From: Chloroflexota bacterium
GTDB taxonomy: Bacteria; Chloroflexota; Dormibacteria; Aeolococcales; Aeolococcaceae
DNA: 64,000 nt
Reading direction: 5' to 3'
Assembly (NCBI GenBank): GCA_005880985.1
Contig: VBIQ01000005.1
Coordinates: 310,001-374,000, forward strand
A program made the position numbers and the translations under genes. Each line of letters starts with the position of its first letter. Position 1 is the stretch's first letter. Below the pieces are notes generated by a model. It saw nothing but the letters and a program-made list of their open reading frames with translations, made no database searches and was not told the DNA's origin. Shown here one piece after another: positions 1 through 12,970 of the stretch.

Positions 1-575
1 ACCCTGACGGCACGGACGCGCGGCTCCGCACCGGCGGCGTCGATCAGCCGCTCGGGTGCACCCTGCCGGCCGAGGGAGAGAGTGCGATCGACGAAGTCAC
101 TGCGACGCCCGAGCACCCCCTCGCAGGCGGCCGCGAGCACGGCTTCATGCGGAGTGCGCGCCGCATCGCCCCAGGCGGCGCACACCAGCCGTCCCCGGGG
201 GCGGAGGATGCGCAACAGCTCGCGAAGCGCCTCCGGAGCCGACCTCACCAGCGGAAGGGTGAACAGCGAGACGCACGCGTCGACCACCGCGTCGCCAAGC
301 GGCAGAGCGCTGCTCTCGGCGCGGATCAGCGACGGACGGCGGCCCGAGGCGATGGCGGCGACCTCGCCGGCGGCAACCGCGAGCTCGTCCGCGGAGGCGT
401 CGCAGGCGAGCACCCATGCCGCGCTCCGGCGCGCCAGCGTCGCGCTGAGCAGCCCCCCGGCACAGGGGGAGTCGAGCGCCACCTCGCCGTGGCCCGGGGC
501 CGCCGCCGCCTGGAGCCGCTCGGCCCAGCCGCGCAGGACGGGCTCGGAGAGAAGCCGAGGCTGGGCGCTGGGCAC
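1..575 (-). CDS. class I SAM-dependent methyltransferase (C-terminus cut by window edge)
   Basis: Minus-strand reading from GTG at 575: VPSAQPRLLSEPVLRGWAERL...VLACDASADELAVAAGEVAA...SSALPLGDAVVDACVSLFTLPLV...LRELLRILRPRGRLVCAAWG, typical methyltransferase motifs. Start overlaps the stop of the upstream biotin carboxylase (TAGTG). Confidence 0.75.
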   Translation of the reverse strand, partial: MPSAQPRLLSEPVLRGWAERLQAAAAPGHGEVALDSPCAGGLLSATLARRSAAWVLACDASADELAVAAGEVAAIASGRRPSLIRAESSALPLGDAVVDACVSLFTLPLVRSAPEALRELLRILRPRGRLVCAAWGDAARTPHEAVLAAACEGVLGRRSDFVDRTLSLGRQGAPERLIDAAGAEPRVRAVR

Positions 576-2020
576 TAGAGGGTGACGGCCACCGCTCCCG
601 CCACCGCCGCCACCGCCGCCCGGTCGCGCAGCAGGGCGCGATCCAGCGCCCGTTTGGGTTCGGCCTGCGCGGCGGCGCGCTCGATCAACTGGGGATGGTC
701 GGGCACGAAATGCGTCGACAGCCGGCCGGCGCGGAAGTCGGCGTCGTCGAGGATGGCGAGGTGGTAGGGAATGGTGGTGCTGATGCCGGTGATGGCGTAC
801 TCGAGCAGGGCGCGGCGCATGCGGCGGATCGCCTGCTCGCGATCGACCCCCCAGGTGATCAGCTTGGCGATCAGCGGGTCGTAGTGGGGAGACACCATGC
901 CCGGTCCGCCCAGCGCGGCGTCGACGCGCACCCCGGGTCCGCTCGGTTCGCGATATCCGGTCACCCGGCCGGGCGTCGGCAGGAAATCGCGCAGCGGGTC
1001 CTCGGCGTTGATGCGGCACTCGATCGCCCAGCCGCGCTGCACGATCTCCGGCTGGCGCACCTCCAGCTGCTCGCCGGCGGCGATGCGCAGCTGCTCGACC
1101 ACCAGGTCGATGCCACAGACCAGCTCGGTCACCGGGTGCTCGACCTGCAGGCGGGTGTTCATCTCCAGAAAGAAGAACGCACCACGGCTGTAGATGAACT
1201 CGACGGTTCCCGCGTTGACGTAGTCGACCGCGCGCGCCGCCGCCACCGCCGCCTCACCCATGTGGGCGCGCTGCTCAGGGGTCAGCACCGGCGACGGTGA
1301 CTCCTCGAGGATCTTCTGATGGCGTCGCTGAATGCTGCATTCGCGCTCGCCGAGGTGCACCACGTTTCCGTGCGTATCGGCCAGAACCTGGATCTCGATG
1401 TGGCGCGGCTCCTCGACGTAGCGCTCGAGGAAGACGGTGGCATTGCCGAACGCGCGCTGGGCGGTGCTCTGCGCCGCCTCCATGCCGGCGCGGAGCTCGG
1501 CCTCGTCGCGGGCCACTCGCATGCCGATGCCGCCGCCGCCGGCGCTGGCCTTGATCAGCACCGGATATCCGATGCGGCCTGCCTCCGCCACCGCCTCGTC
1601 GACCCCGGCGAGGGCACCGCTTCCCGGGACCACCGGGACGCCGGCGGCCTCGACGCGCTGTCGCGCCGGCACCTTCTCACCCATGGCCGCCATCGCCGCT
1701 GGCGGCGGTCCCACGAAGACGATGCCGGCCTGCTCACACGCCCGTGCCAGCGCCTGGTTCTCGCTGAGAAAGCCATAGCCGGGATGGATCGCCTGGGAGC
1801 CGGTGCGGCGTGCCGCCTCGATGATCCGGTCGATCCGCAGGTACGACTCCGCCGCCGGCGCTGGTCCGATCTCCACCGCCTCGTCGGCGAGAAGGACGAA
1901 CAGAGCGCGGCTGTCGGCCTCGCTGTGCACCGCGACGCTGCCGATGCCGAGGTCGCGGCAGGCGCGGATCACCCGCACCGCGATCTCGCCGCGGTTGGCA
2001 ACCAGCACCTTGTCGAACAA
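575..2020 (-). CDS. accC: biotin carboxylase subunit (acetyl/pyruvate/propionyl-CoA carboxylase)
   Basis: MFDKVLVANRGEIAVRVIRACRDLGI..., KASAGGGGIGMRV, HLGERECSIQRRHQKILEE, EMNTRLQVEHPVTE. Confidence 0.95.
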   Translation of the reverse strand: MFDKVLVANRGEIAVRVIRACRDLGIGSVAVHSEADSRALFVLLADEAVEIGPAPAAESYLRIDRIIEAARRTGSQAIHPGYGFLSENQALARACEQAGIVFVGPPPAAMAAMGEKVPARQRVEAAGVPVVPGSGALAGVDEAVAEAGRIGYPVLIKASAGGGGIGMRVARDEAELRAGMEAAQSTAQRAFGNATVFLERYVEEPRHIEIQVLADTHGNVVHLGERECSIQRRHQKILEESPSPVLTPEQRAHMGEAAVAAARAVDYVNAGTVEFIYSRGAFFFLEMNTRLQVEHPVTELVCGIDLVVEQLRIAAGEQLEVRQPEIVQRGWAIECRINAEDPLRDFLPTPGRVTGYREPSGPGVRVDAALGGPGMVSPHYDPLIAKLITWGVDREQAIRRMRRALLEYAITGISTTIPYHLAILDDADFRAGRLSTHFVPDHPQLIERAAAQAEPKRALDRALLRDRAAVAAVAGAVAVTL

Positions 2021-2033
2021 CAGCGCCGCCCTG

Positions 2034-3878
2034 CTACTCGACCAGGACCAGGGGGTCGTTGGGCGACACCACCGTACCCTCGCTGACGTAGACCTCGCGA
2101 ACCGTCCCCGCCCGGGTGGCGATGATGTCGTTCTGCATCTTCATCGCCTCGAGGACGGCGACGACGTCGCCGAGCGCAACGCTGTCTCCGGGGGCCACCG
2201 GCACGCGGAGGATGAGCCCCTGCATCGGTGCCACAACGGTGCCCTCGGACACCGCGGGCCGCACCCCGGCGCTGCCGTTCGCCGACGGGCTGGCATCGGT
2301 CACGGCCACGCCACCGCCGCCGGTGGAGAAGGTCCCGGCGGGACCGATCACCCGCACCGCGTACTGTTCGCCGTCGACCTCGACGACGAGCTCGCGCACA
2401 TCCTGCGTGGGTGACGGCGCCTCGGAGGCCGGCGCCGCACCCGGGTCGCCGCTGCCTTCGCTGATCGCTGCCGGGACCACCTCGGCTCCCGCCTGCGCCG
2501 CCGGTGCCGGCGCCGGCTCATCGCCCAGCAGCTCGATCACCGCCTCGCCGCGCAGCAGCGCCGCGGCCTCCACCGGGAACATCGCGTAGCACAGCACCGC
2601 CTCCTCGCCCGGGACGGGGACGCCCTCGCGCCGCATCTCGCGGCGCAGCGCCGTCATCGCCGGATCGAGGATGTCGGCGGGGCGGCAGGTGATCGGTTCC
2701 TCGCGGCCGTTGACCAGCCGGCGGACCTCCGGATCCACCGGTCCCGGCGCCTCGCCGTACAGCCCGAGGCAGTAGTCCTTCACCTCCTGGCTGATGGTGA
2801 CGTAGCGCTCCTCGTCGGTGACGTTGTAGACCGCCTGGGTCGCGACGATCTGGGCGATGGGGGTGATCAGCGGCGGATAGCCGAGCTCGGCCCGGACCTG
2901 CGGGATCTCCGCCTGCACCTCCGCAAGCCGGCCGACGGCGCCCCGCTCACGCAGCTCGGCATAGAGGTGCTCCACCGCGCTGGGTGGCAGCTGGGTGCGC
3001 AGCACCGATGGGTCGAGCCGCCACGCGGCGGGATCGGCGATCGCGCGGTAGCCGGCGAGCTCCTGCCCGAGCACGCCGGTCGCCACCGCGACCGTGTCGA
3101 GGTCGACTCCCGGATCGACATCGGTGTGGCGCAGGGCCGCGATCACCCCCTCCGTGGCGGGCAGCGATGAGCCCCCCGCGAGGGGCGACAGGGCCACGTC
3201 GAGCGCCGCGGCGCCGGCGCGAGCGGCGGCAAGGTAGGTGAGCCCCGCCTGGCCGGTGAGCGCCGCGGAGTGCACCGTCACCGGCAGCTTGGTCTGGGTG
3301 ATCAGGCCCCGCACCAGCTCCTCGGCGACCTGCGCGCCGAGCAGACCGGCCGGGTCGTACACGCACAGCGCGTCGTAGCCGAGCTCCGCCAACCGCGTCC
3401 CGAGGCCGACGAAGCCAGCGACGTCGTGCACCGGCGACTCGGTGTAGACGAGCCCGCCCTCGGCGCGACGGCCGGCGGCATGGATCGCGACCACGCAACG
3501 CTGCAGATTGCGGACGTCGTTCAACGAGTCGTAGCAGCGGAAGACATCGACGCCGGCCCCGGCGGAGACGCGGATGAAGGCGTCGACGACATCGTCCGCG
3601 AACTGGCGGTGGCCGAGCAGCGCCTGACCGCGCACCAGCGCCAGCAACGGCGTCTGCGGCGCCGCCAGCTTGACGGCGCGGAGCAGGTCGAAGGGATCCT
3701 CACCGAGGAACCGGAGGCAGGCCTCGAAGGTGGCCCCGCCGAAGACGTCGAGGGCGGCGAAACCGCAGCGATCGAGGAGCTCCGCAACGGGCAGCAGGTG
3801 GCGCCGCCGGAGCCGGCTCAGCAGAAGGGTCTGCTGACCGTGCCGCAGCGAGGTCTCGACCAGTTGCAGGGGCGGCAT
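2034..3878 (-). CDS. pyruvate carboxylase subunit B / oxaloacetate decarboxylase alpha-like protein with C-terminal biotinyl domain; carboxyltransferase active site appears degenerate
   Basis: GGATFEACLRFLGEDP, VTDEERYVTISQEVKDYCLGLYGE, C-terminal VLEAMKMQNDI biotinylation motif; adjacent to accC. Confidence 0.85.
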   Translation of the reverse strand: MPPLQLVETSLRHGQQTLLLSRLRRRHLLPVAELLDRCGFAALDVFGGATFEACLRFLGEDPFDLLRAVKLAAPQTPLLALVRGQALLGHRQFADDVVDAFIRVSAGAGVDVFRCYDSLNDVRNLQRCVVAIHAAGRRAEGGLVYTESPVHDVAGFVGLGTRLAELGYDALCVYDPAGLLGAQVAEELVRGLITQTKLPVTVHSAALTGQAGLTYLAAARAGAAALDVALSPLAGGSSLPATEGVIAALRHTDVDPGVDLDTVAVATGVLGQELAGYRAIADPAAWRLDPSVLRTQLPPSAVEHLYAELRERGAVGRLAEVQAEIPQVRAELGYPPLITPIAQIVATQAVYNVTDEERYVTISQEVKDYCLGLYGEAPGPVDPEVRRLVNGREEPITCRPADILDPAMTALRREMRREGVPVPGEEAVLCYAMFPVEAAALLRGEAVIELLGDEPAPAPAAQAGAEVVPAAISEGSGDPGAAPASEAPSPTQDVRELVVEVDGEQYAVRVIGPAGTFSTGGGGVAVTDASPSANGSAGVRPAVSEGTVVAPMQGLILRVPVAPGDSVALGDVVAVLEAMKMQNDIIATRAGTVREVYVSEGTVVSPNDPLVLVE

Positions 3879-4931: not shown

Positions 4932-6193
4932 CAGCAGCGAGACGGCTTTGCGGCATCGCGGCCGGGCCTCGCCTCGCCGCTGGCGGGCCGCGGCACCTCG
5001 ACGTCGACCAGCCAGCCATCGCCGTCGGGACCGGCATGCAGCCGGCCACCGAGCAGAGCCGCTCGTTCACCCATTCCCGCCACGCCGCGGCCGCCGCTCG
5101 CCGTCGGCGCGGCGGGAGCGATGCCGTCACGGTTGCGCACCCGCAGCGCGATGTGCTCGGCGTCTACCGCCAGCTTCACCTCCACCGGCGAGCCCGGCGC
5201 GTGCTTGACCGCGTTGGCGAGGGACTCCTGGACGATGCGATAGAGGCCGAGGCCGGTCGCCGGCGTGACCCCGGAGAGGTCGCCCTCGACGGCAAGGCCG
5301 ACGTCCACACCAGCGTCGGCATAGCCGCTCACCAGGGATGCGATGTCGCCGGCATCCGGGAGCGGCGGCGCCCCGGCCTCGCTGCCGTCGGGACTGAGGA
5401 CGTCGACGGTGCGACGGATGTCGGCGAGGCTCTGCCGTCCCACCCGTTCGGCCTCCTGCAGCGCCTCCTCCGCCTCGGCCGGGTCGCCGCTGCGCAGCGC
5501 AAGCCGCGCCCCGGTGAGATGGAGCATGGTGACGGTGAGGGAGTGGGCAATGACGTCGTGGATCTCGCGCGCGATCCGCTGCCGCTCGCCGAGCGCGGCC
5601 TGGCGGGCAAGGTCGCCCTGCGCGGCGCGGAGTTCGAGCAGTGCCCGCCGCTGGCTGCGCCAGACCCAACCGGTGACGGCACCGGCGAGCATGCCCAGGA
5701 ACCAGCCGGTCCAGTCGCCGATGCCAAATGGCGTGACGGTGGCGCCGGCAACCGTCACCGTCACGGAGCGAACGGTCAGCGCTTCGCCCAAAAGAATCGC
5801 CTCAGCGGCGATGAGCACCGCGAGGCTCACCCGCCAGCCGGCCACCGTCGCGGTGCGTCCCACCAGAAAGACGAGAAGAAACCACGCCGCGGCGGAGCCG
5901 TGGTGATGACCGAGGACGACGATCGGCGCGGCGGCGAGAGCCGCAAAGACCGAGGCCGGCAGGTAGACCCGGAGGCTGTCGAGCAGCCACGGCACGAGCA
6001 CGGCGGCGGCGGCGACGGCCCAGACAGCCGTGGGCACGGTTGAGCCGCCCTGCACCAGCTGCAGCGTCAGGATGGCGCCGACCGGCACCATCTCGCACCA
6101 GCCGACCCACGGCGGCAGCTCGCCGAACAGGTCCTCGGTGGTGCGGTCGCTGCGCGCGATGGTGGGGACTATCTTGAGAACTGCGGCGGGCAT
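4928..6193 (-). CDS. NarL-partner sensor histidine kinase (HisKA_3 / HATPase)
   Basis: RQRIAREIHDVIAHSLTVTMLHLTGARLAL...GLGLYRIVQESLANAVKHA...; N-terminal TM helices; stop overlaps response regulator start. Start placed at ATG 6193, not the longer ORF start. Confidence 0.9.
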   Translation of the reverse strand: MPAAVLKIVPTIARSDRTTEDLFGELPPWVGWCEMVPVGAILTLQLVQGGSTVPTAVWAVAAAAVLVPWLLDSLRVYLPASVFAALAAAPIVVLGHHHGSAAAWFLLVFLVGRTATVAGWRVSLAVLIAAEAILLGEALTVRSVTVTVAGATVTPFGIGDWTGWFLGMLAGAVTGWVWRSQRRALLELRAAQGDLARQAALGERQRIAREIHDVIAHSLTVTMLHLTGARLALRSGDPAEAEEALQEAERVGRQSLADIRRTVDVLSPDGSEAGAPPLPDAGDIASLVSGYADAGVDVGLAVEGDLSGVTPATGLGLYRIVQESLANAVKHAPGSPVEVKLAVDAEHIALRVRNRDGIAPAAPTASGGRGVAGMGERAALLGGRLHAGPDGDGWLVDVEVPRPASGEARPGRDAAKPSRCW

Positions 6194-6199
6194 GCAGCG

Positions 6200-6205
6200 A
6201 ATGTA
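6200..6205 (-). promoter_or_regulatory. leaderless-type -10 box TACATT, 6 nt before ATG of histidine kinase
   Basis: TACATT-N6-ATG. Confidence 0.5.
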
Positions 6206-6275
6206 GGCGCGCCGCCGGGCGGCTGTCATCCGCCCGGGGACGGAGCCGCCTCCCACCGGAGGAGGAGGCCGGCCA

Positions 6276-6776
6276 CTAGGGGGCCGGGGTGAAGCCCTCC
6301 GGCAACCGGCTCTTTGCCGCCATGGCGCCGCGCACCCTCTCCACCGCGGCGGCCACCTGCGGGTCGGCGAGCGCGAGCATCTGGGCCGCCAGATGCCCCG
6401 CGTTGCGAGCCCCCATCTCGCCCACCGCGACGGTGGCCACCGGCACTCCGGGAGGCATCTGCACGATGGCGAGCAGGGCGTCGAAGCCGGCGAGCGGCGT
6501 GCCCGCCAGGGGGACACCGATCACCGGCAGCGAGGTCTGAGACGCCAGCACCCCGGGGAGGTGAGCGGCGGCACCGGCGCCGGCGACCAGCACCCGCAGC
6601 CCTCGCTCGCGGGCGGAGCGGGCGTAGTCGCGCACCACCTCCGGGGCGCGGTGAGCGGACATCACCCCGACCTCGTGGGCGATGCCGTACTCGTCGAGGA
6701 CCTCGGCGCAGCGCTGCATGATCGGCAGATCGCTCTCGCTGCCCATGACGATGCCGACCAGGGGCGAGCTGCTCAT
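6276..6776 (-). CDS. purE: 5-(carboxyamino)imidazole ribonucleotide mutase
   Basis: [46 protein letters not shown]; start overlaps purD stop. Confidence 0.95.
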
Positions 6777-8092
6777 CGTGCCAGCGGTGCGGTGGCGGCG
6801 CCGAGCCGGGCGATGTCGCGGCGCGTCCACATGCCGTCGAACGACACCCGCGCGATGTTCTCGTAGGCACGTTGCCGCGCCTGCTCGTGATCGGATCCGG
6901 TGGCGACGACGGTGAGCACCCGGCCGCCGGCAGTGCGCAACGCGTCGCCACCGGCACCGCGCGTTCCGCCGTGGAAGCAGAGGACGCCGTCGTCGAGCGA
7001 GTCGGTGCCGCTGATGACCGCGCCGGTCATCACTGCTCCCGGATACCCGGCCGAGGCGGCGACCACCCCGACCGCGGCACCGGCACGCGACGGCTCCCGA
7101 CCCGCGCCGAGCTCGCCATGCGCGCAGGCGGTGAACAGAGCGGCGGCGTCGCTGGCCAGCAGGGGCAGCACCACCTGGGTCTCGGGATCACCGAAGCGGG
7201 CGTTGAACTCGAGGACGCGGATGCCTCGGGGGGTCAGCATCAGGCCGGCGTAGAGGCAGCCGCGATAGGGAATGCCCCGCTCGCGCAGGGCGTCGACGCA
7301 GGGCTGGATCACCAGGCGCAGCGCCTCGTCGAGAAGCGGATCGACGTCGACGCCGGACGGTGGCGCGTAGGCACCCATGCCGCCGGTGTTGGGCCCGAGA
7401 TCGCCGTCGTGCGCACGCTTGTAATCACAGGCCGGCGGCAGCAGCCAGACCCGCTCCCCGTCGCTGAGCGCGAACACGCTGACCTCGCGGCCCTCGAGTC
7501 GCTCCTCGACGATCGCCTGGGTGCCGGCCTCGCCGAAGCGGCCCTCCACCAGGCACCCGTCGATGGCGGCCCAGGCCTCGGCCACCGAGTCGCAGACGGT
7601 GACACCCTTGCCCAGCGCCAGCCCGTCCGCTTTGACCGCGCATCGTCCACCCAGCTCGGCGGCGTAGGCGCGCAGTGCGTCGCGGTCCTCCCCGCCACCG
7701 GCACGCCAGCACGCGGTGGGAATGCCGGCCTCGTCCATGAGCTGCTTGGCGAACCGCTTCGACGACTCGATGCGCCCGGCAGCCGCGGTGGGGCCGAAGA
7801 CGGCGATGCCCTCGGCGGCACACGCGTCGGCAAGGCCGGCGGCGACGGCCGCGTCGGGACCGATCACCACCAGGTCGACGTCGCGCTCCCGCGCCACCCG
7901 CGTCACCGCACCCACGTCGTCGGCGCGGAGGTCGACGTTTTCGGCAATGGCGCCGGTGCCGCCGTTGCCCGGGGCGCAGATCACCTCGGCAACGTCCGCG
8001 CTGCGCCGGCACGCCCAGGCCAGCGCATGCTCCCGCGCCCCGGAGCCGGCGACCAGCACGCGCCGCGCCGTGCCCCTGGTAGTTATTCCCAT
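6773..8092 (-). CDS. purD: phosphoribosylamine-glycine ligase
   Basis: [19 protein letters not shown]...APGNGG...[12 protein letters not shown]...[19 protein letters not shown]. Start placed at ATG 8092. Confidence 0.95.
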
Positions 8093-9669
8093 TCGATGGT
8101 GGAGGGGGGTTTGCTGCTGATGTCGTAGACGACGCGGTTGATGCCCGGCACCTCGTTGACGATGCGGCGGGAGATCACTCCCAGCACGTCGTACGGGACC
8201 CGTGCCCAATCGGCGGTCATGCCGTCCTCGCTCTGCACGATACGGATGGCGACCACGTTGGCATAGGTGCGGCCGTCGCCCATCACCCCCACCGAGGAGA
8301 TCGGGGTGAGGATCGCGAACGATTGCCACACCTGGCGGTACAGGCCGCTGCGCTTGATCTCGTCGATGACCACCCAGTCGGCGGCACGCAGCGTCTCCAG
8401 CCGCTCCCAGGTCACCTCGCCGATGATCCTGATGGCCAGGCCTGGTCCCGGAAAGGGCTGACGCCACACCATGTCCTCGGGCAGCCCCAGAGCCAGGCCG
8501 ACCTGGCGCACCTCATCCTTGAACAGGTAGCGAAGGGGTTCGACCAGGGCGAAGCGAAGATCCTCGGGGAGCCCGCCGACGTTGTGATGGGTCTTGATCT
8601 TCTGAGCGTTGTGGGTGTCGCGCGCGGTGGACTCGATGACATCGGGGTAGAGCGTTCCCTGAGCGAGAAAATCGACATGACCGAGCCGGCGTGCCTCCTG
8701 CTCGAAGACATCGATGAACGTCCGGCCGATGCGGCGGCGCTTCTCCTCGGGATCGGTCACCCCCACCAGCGCTTGCAGGAAGCGGTCACTGGCGTCGACG
8801 TGTACCAGGTTGATGTGCCGCTGACGCGACATGATCTCGACCACGCGATCGCCCTCACCGCGGCGGAGCAGACCGTTGTCGACGAACACGCAGGTCAGCT
8901 GGTCGCCGATGGCGCGGTGGACCAGGGTCGCCGCCACCGCGGAGTCGACGCCGCCGGAGAGGGCGCACAGCACCCGGCCGTCTCCGGCGCGCCGGCGGAT
9001 GTCGCCGACCGCCATGTCGACGAAGGAGGCGGGCTCCCAGGTGCCACTGCAACCGCAGATGCGATAGAGAAAGTTGCGCAGGATCTCGCGACCCAGCGGG
9101 GTGTGCACCACCTCGGGATGGAACTGGATTCCCAGCCGTCCGCCCGGCCCTGCCATCGCTGCGCACGGTGAGTTGAGGGTATGGGCGATGGCGCGGAAAC
9201 CGGCGGGAAGCTCGGTGATGACGTCAGCGTGGGACATCCAGACCGGCAGCTCGGCGGGAAGCCGCTCGAAGAGCCCGCTCGACTCGTCGATCACCAGCGA
9301 CGCCAGACCGTACTCACGACGCTCCGCCGGCTGCACGCCGCCCCCCAGCTCCTGGGCAAGCAGCTGCATGCCGTAGCAGATGCCGAGGATGGGGAGGCCG
9401 AGCTGGTACACCTCCGGATCGGGATGGGGAGCGCCGGCGTCGTACACCGAGGCCGGTCCACCGCTGAAGATCAATCCCCGCGGGGCCCGTCGCCGCACCT
9501 CGTCGGCGGCGATGTCGCCGGGCACCAGCTCGCAGTACACCTTGGCCTCGCGGACGCGGCGGGCGATCAGCTGGCTGTACTGCGAGCCGAAGTCGAGAAC
9601 CAGCACCGTGTCGTGGGCGGTCCCCGGTCGCGTCTCGATGCCAGAACCGGTGTCGACCGCCGTGGTCAT
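8083..9669 (-). CDS. guaA: GMP synthase (glutamine-hydrolysing)
   Basis: [20 protein letters not shown]...[11 protein letters not shown]...[18 protein letters not shown]...[14 protein letters not shown]...[17 protein letters not shown]. Confidence 0.97.
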
Positions 9670-9697
9670 CGCCGTCAGTCCCCCGTCTCTCGCCGCA

Positions 9698-10858
9698 TCA
9701 CACCCCCATCCCGACCCGCTGCTCGCGCTGCTGCAGCTTGCCCTCGGTCTTGATCGCCGGGGCCACCACCATCTCCGTGTCCTGAAACTCGCGGATGGTT
9801 CGCGCTCCGCACACTCCCATCGCGCTCTTCAGCGCGCCGATCAGATTCATGCTGCCGTCGTCGACGTGGGCCGGCCCGAAGAGCACCTGGCCGAGGGAGC
9901 CCTTGACCCCGGTGCGGATGCGCGTACCCCGCGGCAGGTTGGGATCGGGGGTCGCCATGCCCCAGTGATTGCCGTGTCCGGCCGCCTCCTCGGTGGCGGC
10001 GAAGATCGATCCGATCATCACCGCGTCGGCGCCGCTGGCGAAGGCCTTGCAGATGTCGCCGCCGATGCGCATCCCGCCATCGGTGATGATCGCGACCCGC
10101 TCCCCGCTGCGCCGGAAGTGGTCGTCGCGGGCGGCGGCGCAGTCGCTGGTGGCGGTCACCTGGGGGACGCCGACGCCCAGCACCGCCCGGGTGGTGCAGG
10201 CGGCCCCGGGACCGACGCCCACCAGCAGGCCGCGGATGCCGGTGTCCATCAGCTCCAGCGCGGTCGCGTAGTCGACGCAGTTGCCGACGACCACGGGAAT
10301 GTCGAGCGAGTCGGTGAGCTCGCGGAAGGAGAGCTGCTTGTAGGCGCGGCTGATGTGGCGGGCGGTGAGCACGGTGCCCTGGACGACGAACACGTCGGCG
10401 CCGGCCTCCTGGACGATGGGGCCACGTCGCTCGGCGTGGTTGGGGATCGACGAGACCGCACAGGCCACCCCGCCTTCCTTGATCTCCTCGATGCGCTGTC
10501 CGATGAGCCCGTCCTGCACCGGTGCTCGGTAGAGCTTCTGCAGCAGGACGTTGACGTCCTCCGGCGGCGCGGCGGCGATCTCGGCGAGAACCGCGCCGGG
10601 ATCCTCGTAACGGGTCTGCACCCCGTCGAGGTTGAGAACCGCGAGACCCCCGTGCCGGCCCATCTCGTGGACGAAGTGGACGTCGACCACTCCGTCCATC
10701 GCCGCGGCCAGGATGGGGAGCTCGAAACCGCGACCGTCGAGGCTGAAGCCGACGTCGATCTCATCGGGATTGATGGTCACCGTGCCGGGGACGAGGGCGA
10801 CCTCGTCGAAGCCGTAGGCCCGGCGGGCGCGCTTGGATCGGCCTAGCTCGAACTCCAT
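9698..10858 (-). CDS. guaB3: GuaB3-family IMP dehydrogenase-related protein
   Basis: [36 protein letters not shown]...[20 protein letters not shown]...; short, no CBS insertion, as in GuaB3-type paralogues. Confidence 0.85.
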
Positions 10859-10891
10859 GGCACCTCCCCCGCTGGCTCGAAATCACCCCCT

Positions 10892-10935
10892 GGAAAAGCA
10901 AACGCCCAGGGCAGCTGCCGGTGGCTGCCCTGGGC
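10892..10935 (-). terminator. intrinsic terminator/attenuator in guaB3 5' leader
   Basis: Minus strand GCCCAGGGCAGC-CACCGGCA-GCTGCCCTGGGC followed by GTTTGCTTTT, upstream of the guaB3 start. Confidence 0.7.
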
Positions 10936-10956
10936 GCAGGCCTCTCCGTGCGCCCA
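10931..10956 (-). promoter_or_regulatory. candidate antiterminator hairpin, mutually exclusive with the guaB3 leader terminator
   Basis: Minus strand TGGGCGCA (10956-10949) is perfectly complementary to TGCGCCCA (10938-10931), whose GCCCA is part of the terminator 5' arm. Confidence 0.55.
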
Positions 10957-11018
10957 CGCGCAGATCAGCGGCAGGGGCACGGGATGCGCTCTCTCGTGGT
11001 CATCGGTGATGACGCCTC

Positions 11019-11024
11019 AGTGTA
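11019..11024 (-). promoter_or_regulatory. candidate -10 box (TACACT) of guaB3 leader transcript
   Basis: TACACT on minus strand about 160 nt upstream of guaB3 start. Confidence 0.4.
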
Positions 11025-11132
11025 GCAAACTCGGCTGGCACCGATCCGGCCACCTGCCCAGCATCTTGTGTCTTGGTTGTGGCTGCCTCCCTATATCTTG
11101 TGGTCGATCCTCCACGTCCGGGCCCGACGGGC

Positions 11133-11891
11133 TCAGCCCCGGAACACCGAGCGGCGCTGCATCGGGCCGGCGACCAGACCGCGCTGCACGGTCTCGCGAA
11201 CCTCGTCGGCGAGCTCCATCACCGTCGCCGCATCGGCCGCCGCCGAGGCGGGAAGAAGCCAGGGGACGCACGTCGGCGAGCATCGGATAGATCTCCTCCG
11301 ATCCCACCACCGAGACGGGAACGATCGGCGCGCCGGCCCGGATCGCCACCTCGACGAATCCTCCGCGACCGAAGCGGCGCAGCTGGTAGCGCTCCGCGAA
11401 GGGCTTGCCCGTCCCCTTGACTCCCTCGGGAAAGACCAGCACCAGCTCGCCGGCACCAAGCAGGCGGACGGTGTCCTCGGGGTGCCCGATGGTCTGCCCG
11501 CTCCGGCGCAGGAACCAGGAGAGCACCGGCAGGCTGAAGAACCGGCCGGCGATCAGCGCCCGCGCGTGGCGGTCGACCCCTTCCTCGAAGAGCGCTGTCT
11601 TGATCATCGCCCCGTCGAGGGGAAGCACGCCGGCGTGGTTGCTCACCAGCGGCGCCGCCCCCACGCGCGGCACGTGCTCGATCCCGCTCGTCTCGACCCG
11701 CCAGTAGCGTCGGTCGAGGAGGCGGAAGACGGGAGCATGCTCTCCGTCCACTCGCGATCGAAGCCGAGGGGTCCTGCTGGTAGGCGCCGGCGCTCCAGCT
11801 CGGCGTCCGCGGCGGCGCGGAGAGCGCTGAGGCGCCGACGCAGCCCGTCGTCGGTGTGCCCGGTTGCCCGCGGCGCCCCGACGACGCTCAT
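11133..11891 (-). pseudogene. lysophospholipid (1-acylglycerol-3-phosphate) acyltransferase family, disrupted reading frame
   Basis: N-terminus in one frame (MSVVGAPRATG...LGFDREWTESMLP), core in another (VFRLLDRRYWRVETSGIEHVP...LVSNHAGVLPLDG...VLVFPEGVKGTGKPFAERYQLRRFGRGGFVEVAIRAGAPIVPVSVVGSEEIYPMLAD), C-terminus back in the first frame (TVMELADEVRETVQRGL). Confidence 0.75.
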
Positions 11892-12970
11892 CCAGGCAGC
11901 ACGCTCTCGGGTGAGGTGGCGACGCCGTTTCCCGACCGGCGGGTGGTGCTGCGTTGCAGGAACTCTTCGAGCTCGCGCTCGTCGCGGGATTCGCTCCGCT
12001 CCGCGAGGAGGGTGCTGACGCGACGCTTCTCAGCGAAGTCCTCGACCACCTGGCGACTGGCATACCGAGGGACGAAACCGAAGTCGCGCTCGAGGCGGCC
12101 GATGTCGACCACGCGTCCGTACTGGATCAGCTGCAGCAGATGCGGCGGCCAGTCGAGGATGCCGAAGCGCTTCAGCGCCGCGGTGGCCAGAAAGCCGCCG
12201 TACGGAGGGATGACCGCGACGTTGCGCTTGTGCATGATGCGGATGGCCTGGCTGAGGATCACGATCCCCGAACCGGCGACGTTGAAGACGCCGGGACGCT
12301 CCTCGACGGTGGCCCGGTACAGCGCTTCGACCGCGTCGTCCTCGTGAACGAACTGCAACCTGGGGTCGAAACCGAAGACCGTCGGCACCGCGGGCAGGGT
12401 CAGCAGCGCCTGGAACGGGGTCTGCAGCAGCGGGCCCAGCACATTGCTGAAGCGGAGCACGGTCACCGTCGCGTCGGCCTGGCGGAGGGCGAAGTCGCGC
12501 ACGTAGGCCTCGACCTCGACGATGTCGCGGGAGAAGGCGTCACGCGGCGGCGTCCGCCGGCTCATCTCCTCGGTCCAGAAGGACGGGTCGTCGGGCTCAC
12601 TTCCATAGATGGCGGTGCTCGACTTGACCACCAGCTTGCGCACCGGGCTGTCGACCCCGCTGCAGGCGGCGAGCAGGTTCATGGTGCCGATCACGTTGGT
12701 CTCGTGGGCGATGCGCGGGCTGGTGCGGCGCGGATCGACGATGAGGTTGGTGTGGACCACGGTGTCGATGCCGAGGGCGCGCACCAGCTTGCCGATGAGG
12801 CTGTGGCGGAGGTCGGCGCGGACGAAATCGGTCCGGGAGAGGTCGCGCGACGGCTCGCGCACGTCGACGCCGACGATCTGCTCCACCTCGGGGTCGGCTT
12901 CCAGCCGCTGGGCCAGCTCGCAGCCCCAGAAGCGCGAGACCCCGGTGATCAACACCCTCTGCCTGCGCAC
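11888..12970 (-). CDS. NAD-dependent epimerase/dehydratase (extended SDR)
   Basis: RRQRVLITGVSRFWGCELAQRLEADPEVEQIVGVDVREP...DTVVHTN...KSSTAIYG...VLRFSNVLGP; GTG start at 12970. Confidence 0.85.
   Translation of the reverse strand: MRRQRVLITGVSRFWGCELAQRLEADPEVEQIVGVDVREPSRDLSRTDFVRADLRHSLIGKLVRALGIDTVVHTNLIVDPRRTSPRIAHETNVIGTMNLLAACSGVDSPVRKLVVKSSTAIYGSEPDDPSFWTEEMSRRTPPRDAFSRDIVEVEAYVRDFALRQADATVTVLRFSNVLGPLLQTPFQALLTLPAVPTVFGFDPRLQFVHEDDAVEALYRATVEERPGVFNVAGSGIVILSQAIRIMHKRNVAVIPPYGGFLATAALKRFGILDWPPHLLQLIQYGRVVDIGRLERDFGFVPRYASRQVVEDFAEKRRVSTLLAERSESRDERELEEFLQRSTTRRSGNGVATSPESVLPG

Follow-up and report, generated by a model that had tools for sequence, protein, structure and literature searches.

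What might be the role of a protein that is built like the carboxyltransferase (CT) and biotin-carrier subunit of pyruvate carboxylase, PycB, and has lost the catalytic site of the carboxyltransferase? The question is raised by a gene in the window, by which we mean the whole stretch of 64,000 nucleotides that was analyzed, a part of a Dormibacterota genome (contig C12:310001-374000). The gene, here called a pseudo-carboxyltransferase, is located at 2034..3878 on the minus strand. Its reading frame (3878..2034) starts with ATG, is free of internal stops and encodes 614 amino acids.

Architecture and catalytic sites of the protein

The protein was matched by the NCBIfam model NF006761, "pyruvate carboxylase subunit B", with 551 bits against a cut-off of 402, and displays the architecture of PycB and OadA. 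The CT TIM barrel (residues 4-265; 3084..3869, minus strand), which has kept its fold and lost its catalytic site, gave a weak Pfam match to the HMGL-like domain (PF00682, residues 4-263, 42 bits, E 9e-11). It is followed by the conserved carboxylase domain PYC_OADA (PF02436, residues 292-507, E 3.4e-34; 2358..3005, minus strand) and by a biotinyl (BCCP) domain (Biotin_lipoyl, PF00364, residues 547-611, E 4e-16; 2037..2243, minus strand) with the motif E577-A-M-K580-M, in which Lys580 (codon 2139..2141, minus strand) is the predicted biotinylation site. The same order of domains is found in PycB of Methylobacillus flagellatus (5ks8 chain C; 607 residues, E 1e-123), and the barrel and PYC_OADA domain have the fold of the PycB, OadA and 5S carboxyltransferases. 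The AccB model TIGR00531 matched residues 544-614 only, with 38 bits against a cut-off of 115; as a whole, the protein is not of the AccB type.

The next gene on the minus strand, accC, begins 13 bases downstream (575..2020) and encodes a biotin carboxylase of 481 amino acids, which was identified by PF00289, PF02786 and PF02785 and by TIGR00514 (650.5 bits, cut-off 626.5). It is full length, in agreement with the first-pass annotation of the locus, which had judged it intact. An adjoining, separate biotin carboxylase is also the arrangement of the two-subunit pyruvate carboxylases.

The catalytic sites were mapped by alignment of the 614 residues to 5ks8_C, 2nx9_A and 1rqb_A. The alignments confirmed three substitutions that had been proposed by the first-pass annotation: the metal-binding Asp is replaced by His13 in the motif LRHGQQT (codon 3840..3842, minus strand), the carbamylated Lys by Tyr174 in VYDPAG (3357..3359, minus strand), and the second His of the His-x-His metal pair by Ala205 in the motif HSA (codons 203-205, 3264..3272, minus strand), of which the first His, His203, is retained. 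They also revealed a fourth loss, absent from that annotation, since the position of the catalytic Thr/Ser is occupied by Leu207 (3258..3260, minus strand). We take Leu207 to be the equivalent of Thr882 of R. etli pyruvate carboxylase, an assumption that, like the functions given to the metal ligands, draws on the alignments and on general knowledge of the family. Thr882 is catalytically essential, and the T882A substitution abolishes activity (PMC5895798). The pseudo-carboxyltransferase thus differs from PycB, OadA and 5S in the same four positions. The losses are seen directly in the sequence and suggest that the protein has no CT activity. Because both the metal site and the catalytic Thr are missing, the name pyruvate carboxylase is unwarranted.

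The AF2 model of the protein has a pLDDT of 90.6, with about 97 in the barrel. In a Foldseek comparison, the barrel matched OadA (2nx9_A) with a TMt of 0.95 and an rmsd of 1.6 Å, and transcarboxylase 5S (1rqb) with a TMt of 0.90. The predicted fold of the barrel is thus intact despite the lost site. A supply of the ligands from shifted positions, named beforehand as a finding that would overturn the first-pass annotation, was rejected, since the secondary-structure elements around residues 13, 174, 203-205 and 207 are co-located and in register with those in the model of a canonical homologue.

Distribution, constraint and divergence of the degenerate proteins

A tree was built from an alignment of 94 sequences from which the active-site columns had been removed. 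The site is missing from all non-redundant members of the window's own family (f1) and of a sister family in the same order (f2), which together form one clade of 36 sequences (SH-aLRT 99). The substitutions therefore co-occur as a clade, as the first-pass annotation had proposed to examine: the Asp, the Lys and the second His, and also the Thr, have been lost jointly. With 35 further non-redundant homologues sharing the lost sites, a sequencing error can be ruled out.

In this clade, the former ligand and Thr positions are occupied by mixed residues: H/Q/A/S/Y/W/L at position 13, H/Y/F/L/Q/R at position 174, A/S/T/C/V at position 205 and I/Q/L/A at position 207. At none of the lost positions has the clade acquired a conserved acid, base or metal ligand. 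More than half of the clade, by weight, has in addition lost Arg83, presumably the substrate Arg that would hold the carboxylate of the keto acid. Some residues at other positions are conserved specifically in the clade, for example F63, E140, G235 and E308.

Canonical proteins are found throughout another family (f4), with one exception, and in archaeal, Dehalococcoidia and actinobacterial outgroups. In a third family (f3), the Asp and both His are kept and the carbamylated Lys is replaced by Glu in the motif GIEDVAG (homologues L037, L038, L040-L043, L104, L111, L115, L117, L119 and L120); this Glu might bind the metal in the manner of the carbamate. The Lys is replaced by Asn in L129 and by Ala in L046 (genome G053), the exception in f4; both proteins have kept the Asp and both His. 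Taken together with the degenerate clade, the Lys has thus disappeared at three or more points of the tree. A canonical PycB elsewhere in the window's genome was considered and rejected, as none was found, and no such paralogue was evident in the relatives. In the profile of relatives, five had no match to the pseudo-carboxyltransferase, which may be due to assembly gaps.

The canonical, Lys-to-Glu and degenerate versions share a common neighborhood, guaB-guaA-purD-purE-pycB-accC together with sigma-factor genes, and canonical homologues in a further sister family occupy the same chromosomal place. The shared neighborhood implies that the gene has decayed in place rather than arrived anew. Some local variation was observed. 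In two f2 genomes, a gene for a small DksA/TraR-type zinc-finger protein is located just upstream of the pseudo-carboxyltransferase (L251:4716-5069 and L252:8655-9011), and in genus g12 (L254, genome G022, 5497-12565) several kb containing other ORFs separate the carboxyltransferase-like gene from accC.

Comparisons of close relatives within the degenerate clade gave dN/dS values of 0.05-0.20 for the barrel in five genera, from which we conclude that the protein is in use; dN/dS was below 1 in every domain. The biotinyl motif EAMKM, including Lys580, is retained in all 36 members. The canonical homologues have 66 near-invariant barrel positions. When these were ranked by variability, the lost sites were among the most variable, and merely 6 to 12 of the 66 varied more than sites 174, 13, 205 and 207. 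The mean identity of the barrel to archaeal PycB drops from 0.52 in canonical Dormibacterota to 0.37 in the degenerate proteins, whereas the corresponding values hardly change for the biotinyl domain (0.534 and 0.523) or for AccC (0.558 and 0.562). Judged from these identities, the accelerated divergence appears to be confined mainly to the barrel.

Biotin carriers and carboxylases across the genomes

Every biotin/lipoyl domain detected by Pfam (PF00364) was read in frame in 12 relatives, represented by metagenome-assembled genomes (MAGs) of 84-93% completeness (G012, G013, G018, G032, G033, G035, G037, G038, G039, G040, G044 and G048). Apart from the pseudo-carboxyltransferase, all such domains in the 12 were lipoyl domains or had no biotinyl Lys motif. 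Second matches to the EAMKM pattern in G040 (contig C222) and G038 (C116) were rejected, as reading in three frames gave no biotinyl domain. Each of the 12 encodes a single biotin carboxylase, which shares a contig with the pseudo-carboxyltransferase in all but one of them; such an arrangement is also the usual state across the relatives. AccA was identified in all 12 and in 60 of the 61 genomes overall; in G040, AccD and AccA are encoded by neighboring genes. The incompleteness of the MAGs could hide an AccB in one genome, but hardly in 12. With AccA present and no other carrier in these assemblies, the pseudo-carboxyltransferase is by elimination the probable carrier of acetyl-CoA carboxylase. 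In this group of Dormibacterota, which are soil bacteria, a presumably dead carboxyltransferase with a biotin site thus most likely feeds acetyl-CoA carboxylase at the start of fatty-acid synthesis.

The biotin ligase BirA was found in 55 of the 61 relatives, although not in G018 of the sole-carrier set, and is encoded at C1:303835-304521 in the window's genome. This genome also contains a second set of genes (C1:210283-214345, L243) for a biotin carboxylase, a PccB-type CT and a 76-aa carrier with the motif ESMKM. The presence of a second carrier and biotin carboxylase means that, in the window's genome, the carrier role of the pseudo-carboxyltransferase rests on orthology.

PEP carboxylase was found in each of the six f3 genomes searched. 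It is absent from the window's genome and from many relatives, and was for this reason rejected as a consistent replacement for pyruvate carboxylase. GTP-PEPCK is absent from all 61 genomes, including that of the window. Since the window's genome has neither enzyme, there is a small chance that some CT activity remains.

Proposed role and competing explanations

We consider it likely that the pseudo-carboxyltransferase has been kept as a scaffold and biotin carrier between AccC and the carboxyltransferases AccDA and those for other acyl-CoA substrates. The ancestor would have been a normal CT-carrier subunit (PycB) of a two-subunit pyruvate carboxylase, encoded at this position of the chromosome. 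Its barrel would have lost the metal site and the catalytic Thr in the common ancestor of the two Dormibacterota families, and become a presumably inactive pseudoenzyme. As suggested by the selection and structure analyses, the barrel and the PYC_OADA domain may then provide the C-terminal biotinyl domain with a folded support. BirA would attach biotin to Lys580, AccC would carboxylate the biotin, and the biotinyl domain would hand over the carboxyl group to AccDA and, where present, to PccB-type subunits, so that the protein would take the part of AccB in acetyl-CoA carboxylase.

The first-pass annotation had left the choice between a scaffold from which a different partner receives its carboxybiotin and a carboxyltransferase with new chemistry or a new acceptor. 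The former is well supported by the sole carrier, the single biotin carboxylase and the AccA of the 12 relatives, and the latter is not supported. That the barrel acts on another acceptor in a manner independent of the canonical metal site would fit with its purifying selection and well-folded model, with the residues conserved specifically in the clade, and with the lack of PEP carboxylase and GTP-PEPCK in the window's genome. However, the former ligand and Thr positions are mixed with no new acid or base conserved there, Arg83 is often lost, and the barrel is the domain most diverged from the canonical homologues. E140 belongs to strand 138-144 of the AF2 model and lies in its N-terminal half, which would place it away from the catalytic mouth. 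We therefore regard new chemistry as improbable. A similarly low probability is given to a carrier that mainly serves PccB-type carboxyltransferases, for propionyl-CoA and other acyl-CoA substrates, rather than AccDA. Such subunits do occur alongside AccDA in most of the genomes examined, but genome G022, whose assembly contains AccDA and lacks PccB-type CTs, has kept the pseudo-carboxyltransferase, and the AccA of all the sole-carrier genomes would otherwise be left with no carrier.

A regulatory protein, which takes up an effector such as pyruvate or oxaloacetate in its barrel and either gates the delivery of carboxybiotin or sequesters AccC, would be in line with the constraint on the whole barrel. 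Pseudoenzymes often retain ligand binding, and plants offer a precedent in the BADC proteins, which resemble carriers and regulate acetyl-CoA carboxylase. The fully conserved biotin site resembles that of a working carrier, unlike the BADCs, and the frequent loss of Arg83 is a further argument against a regulator, which we regard as very unlikely. Beyond the loss of catalytic residues itself, nothing favors a decaying pseudogene or a sequencing artefact. The reading frame is open in 36 non-redundant sequences with selective constraint in every domain, and the biotinyl motif and the operon with accC have been kept. An explanation of this kind is refuted by the clade-wide conservation and retains next to no probability.

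As a carrier from AccC to AccDA, the pseudo-carboxyltransferase would be functionally equivalent to AccB of the heteromeric acetyl-CoA carboxylase in the 12 relatives. It differs from AccB, a small carrier, in that its carrier domain is joined to a fossil enzyme of roughly 440 residues. In a related phylum, the carrier domain of acetyl-CoA carboxylase is likewise housed in an unusual way, as BC1 of Chloroflexus aurantiacus is a fusion of biotin carboxylase and BCCP (PMC11077971); here, in contrast, the carrier is fused to a dead carboxyltransferase. In the open-access literature, we found no carboxyltransferase pseudoenzyme acting as a biotin carrier and no paper on an inactive carboxyltransferase domain. 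It is conceivable, if rather doubtful, that the dead barrel has retained the ability to bind a central metabolite, or AccDA itself, and gates the delivery of carboxybiotin, in which case a fossil pyruvate carboxylase would control fatty-acid synthesis and one carrier would serve all the biotin-dependent carboxylases.

Since the family models name the protein "pyruvate carboxylase subunit B", metabolic reconstructions of Dormibacterota would wrongly assign a pyruvate carboxylase. If the proposed carrier role is true, another carboxylase can supply the carrier domain that stands in for the essential AccB, and its own catalytic half then decays in place. As one and the same locus is occupied in the phylum by canonical, by Lys-to-Glu or by fully degenerate versions, it offers a graded natural series for testing the loss of enzyme function.
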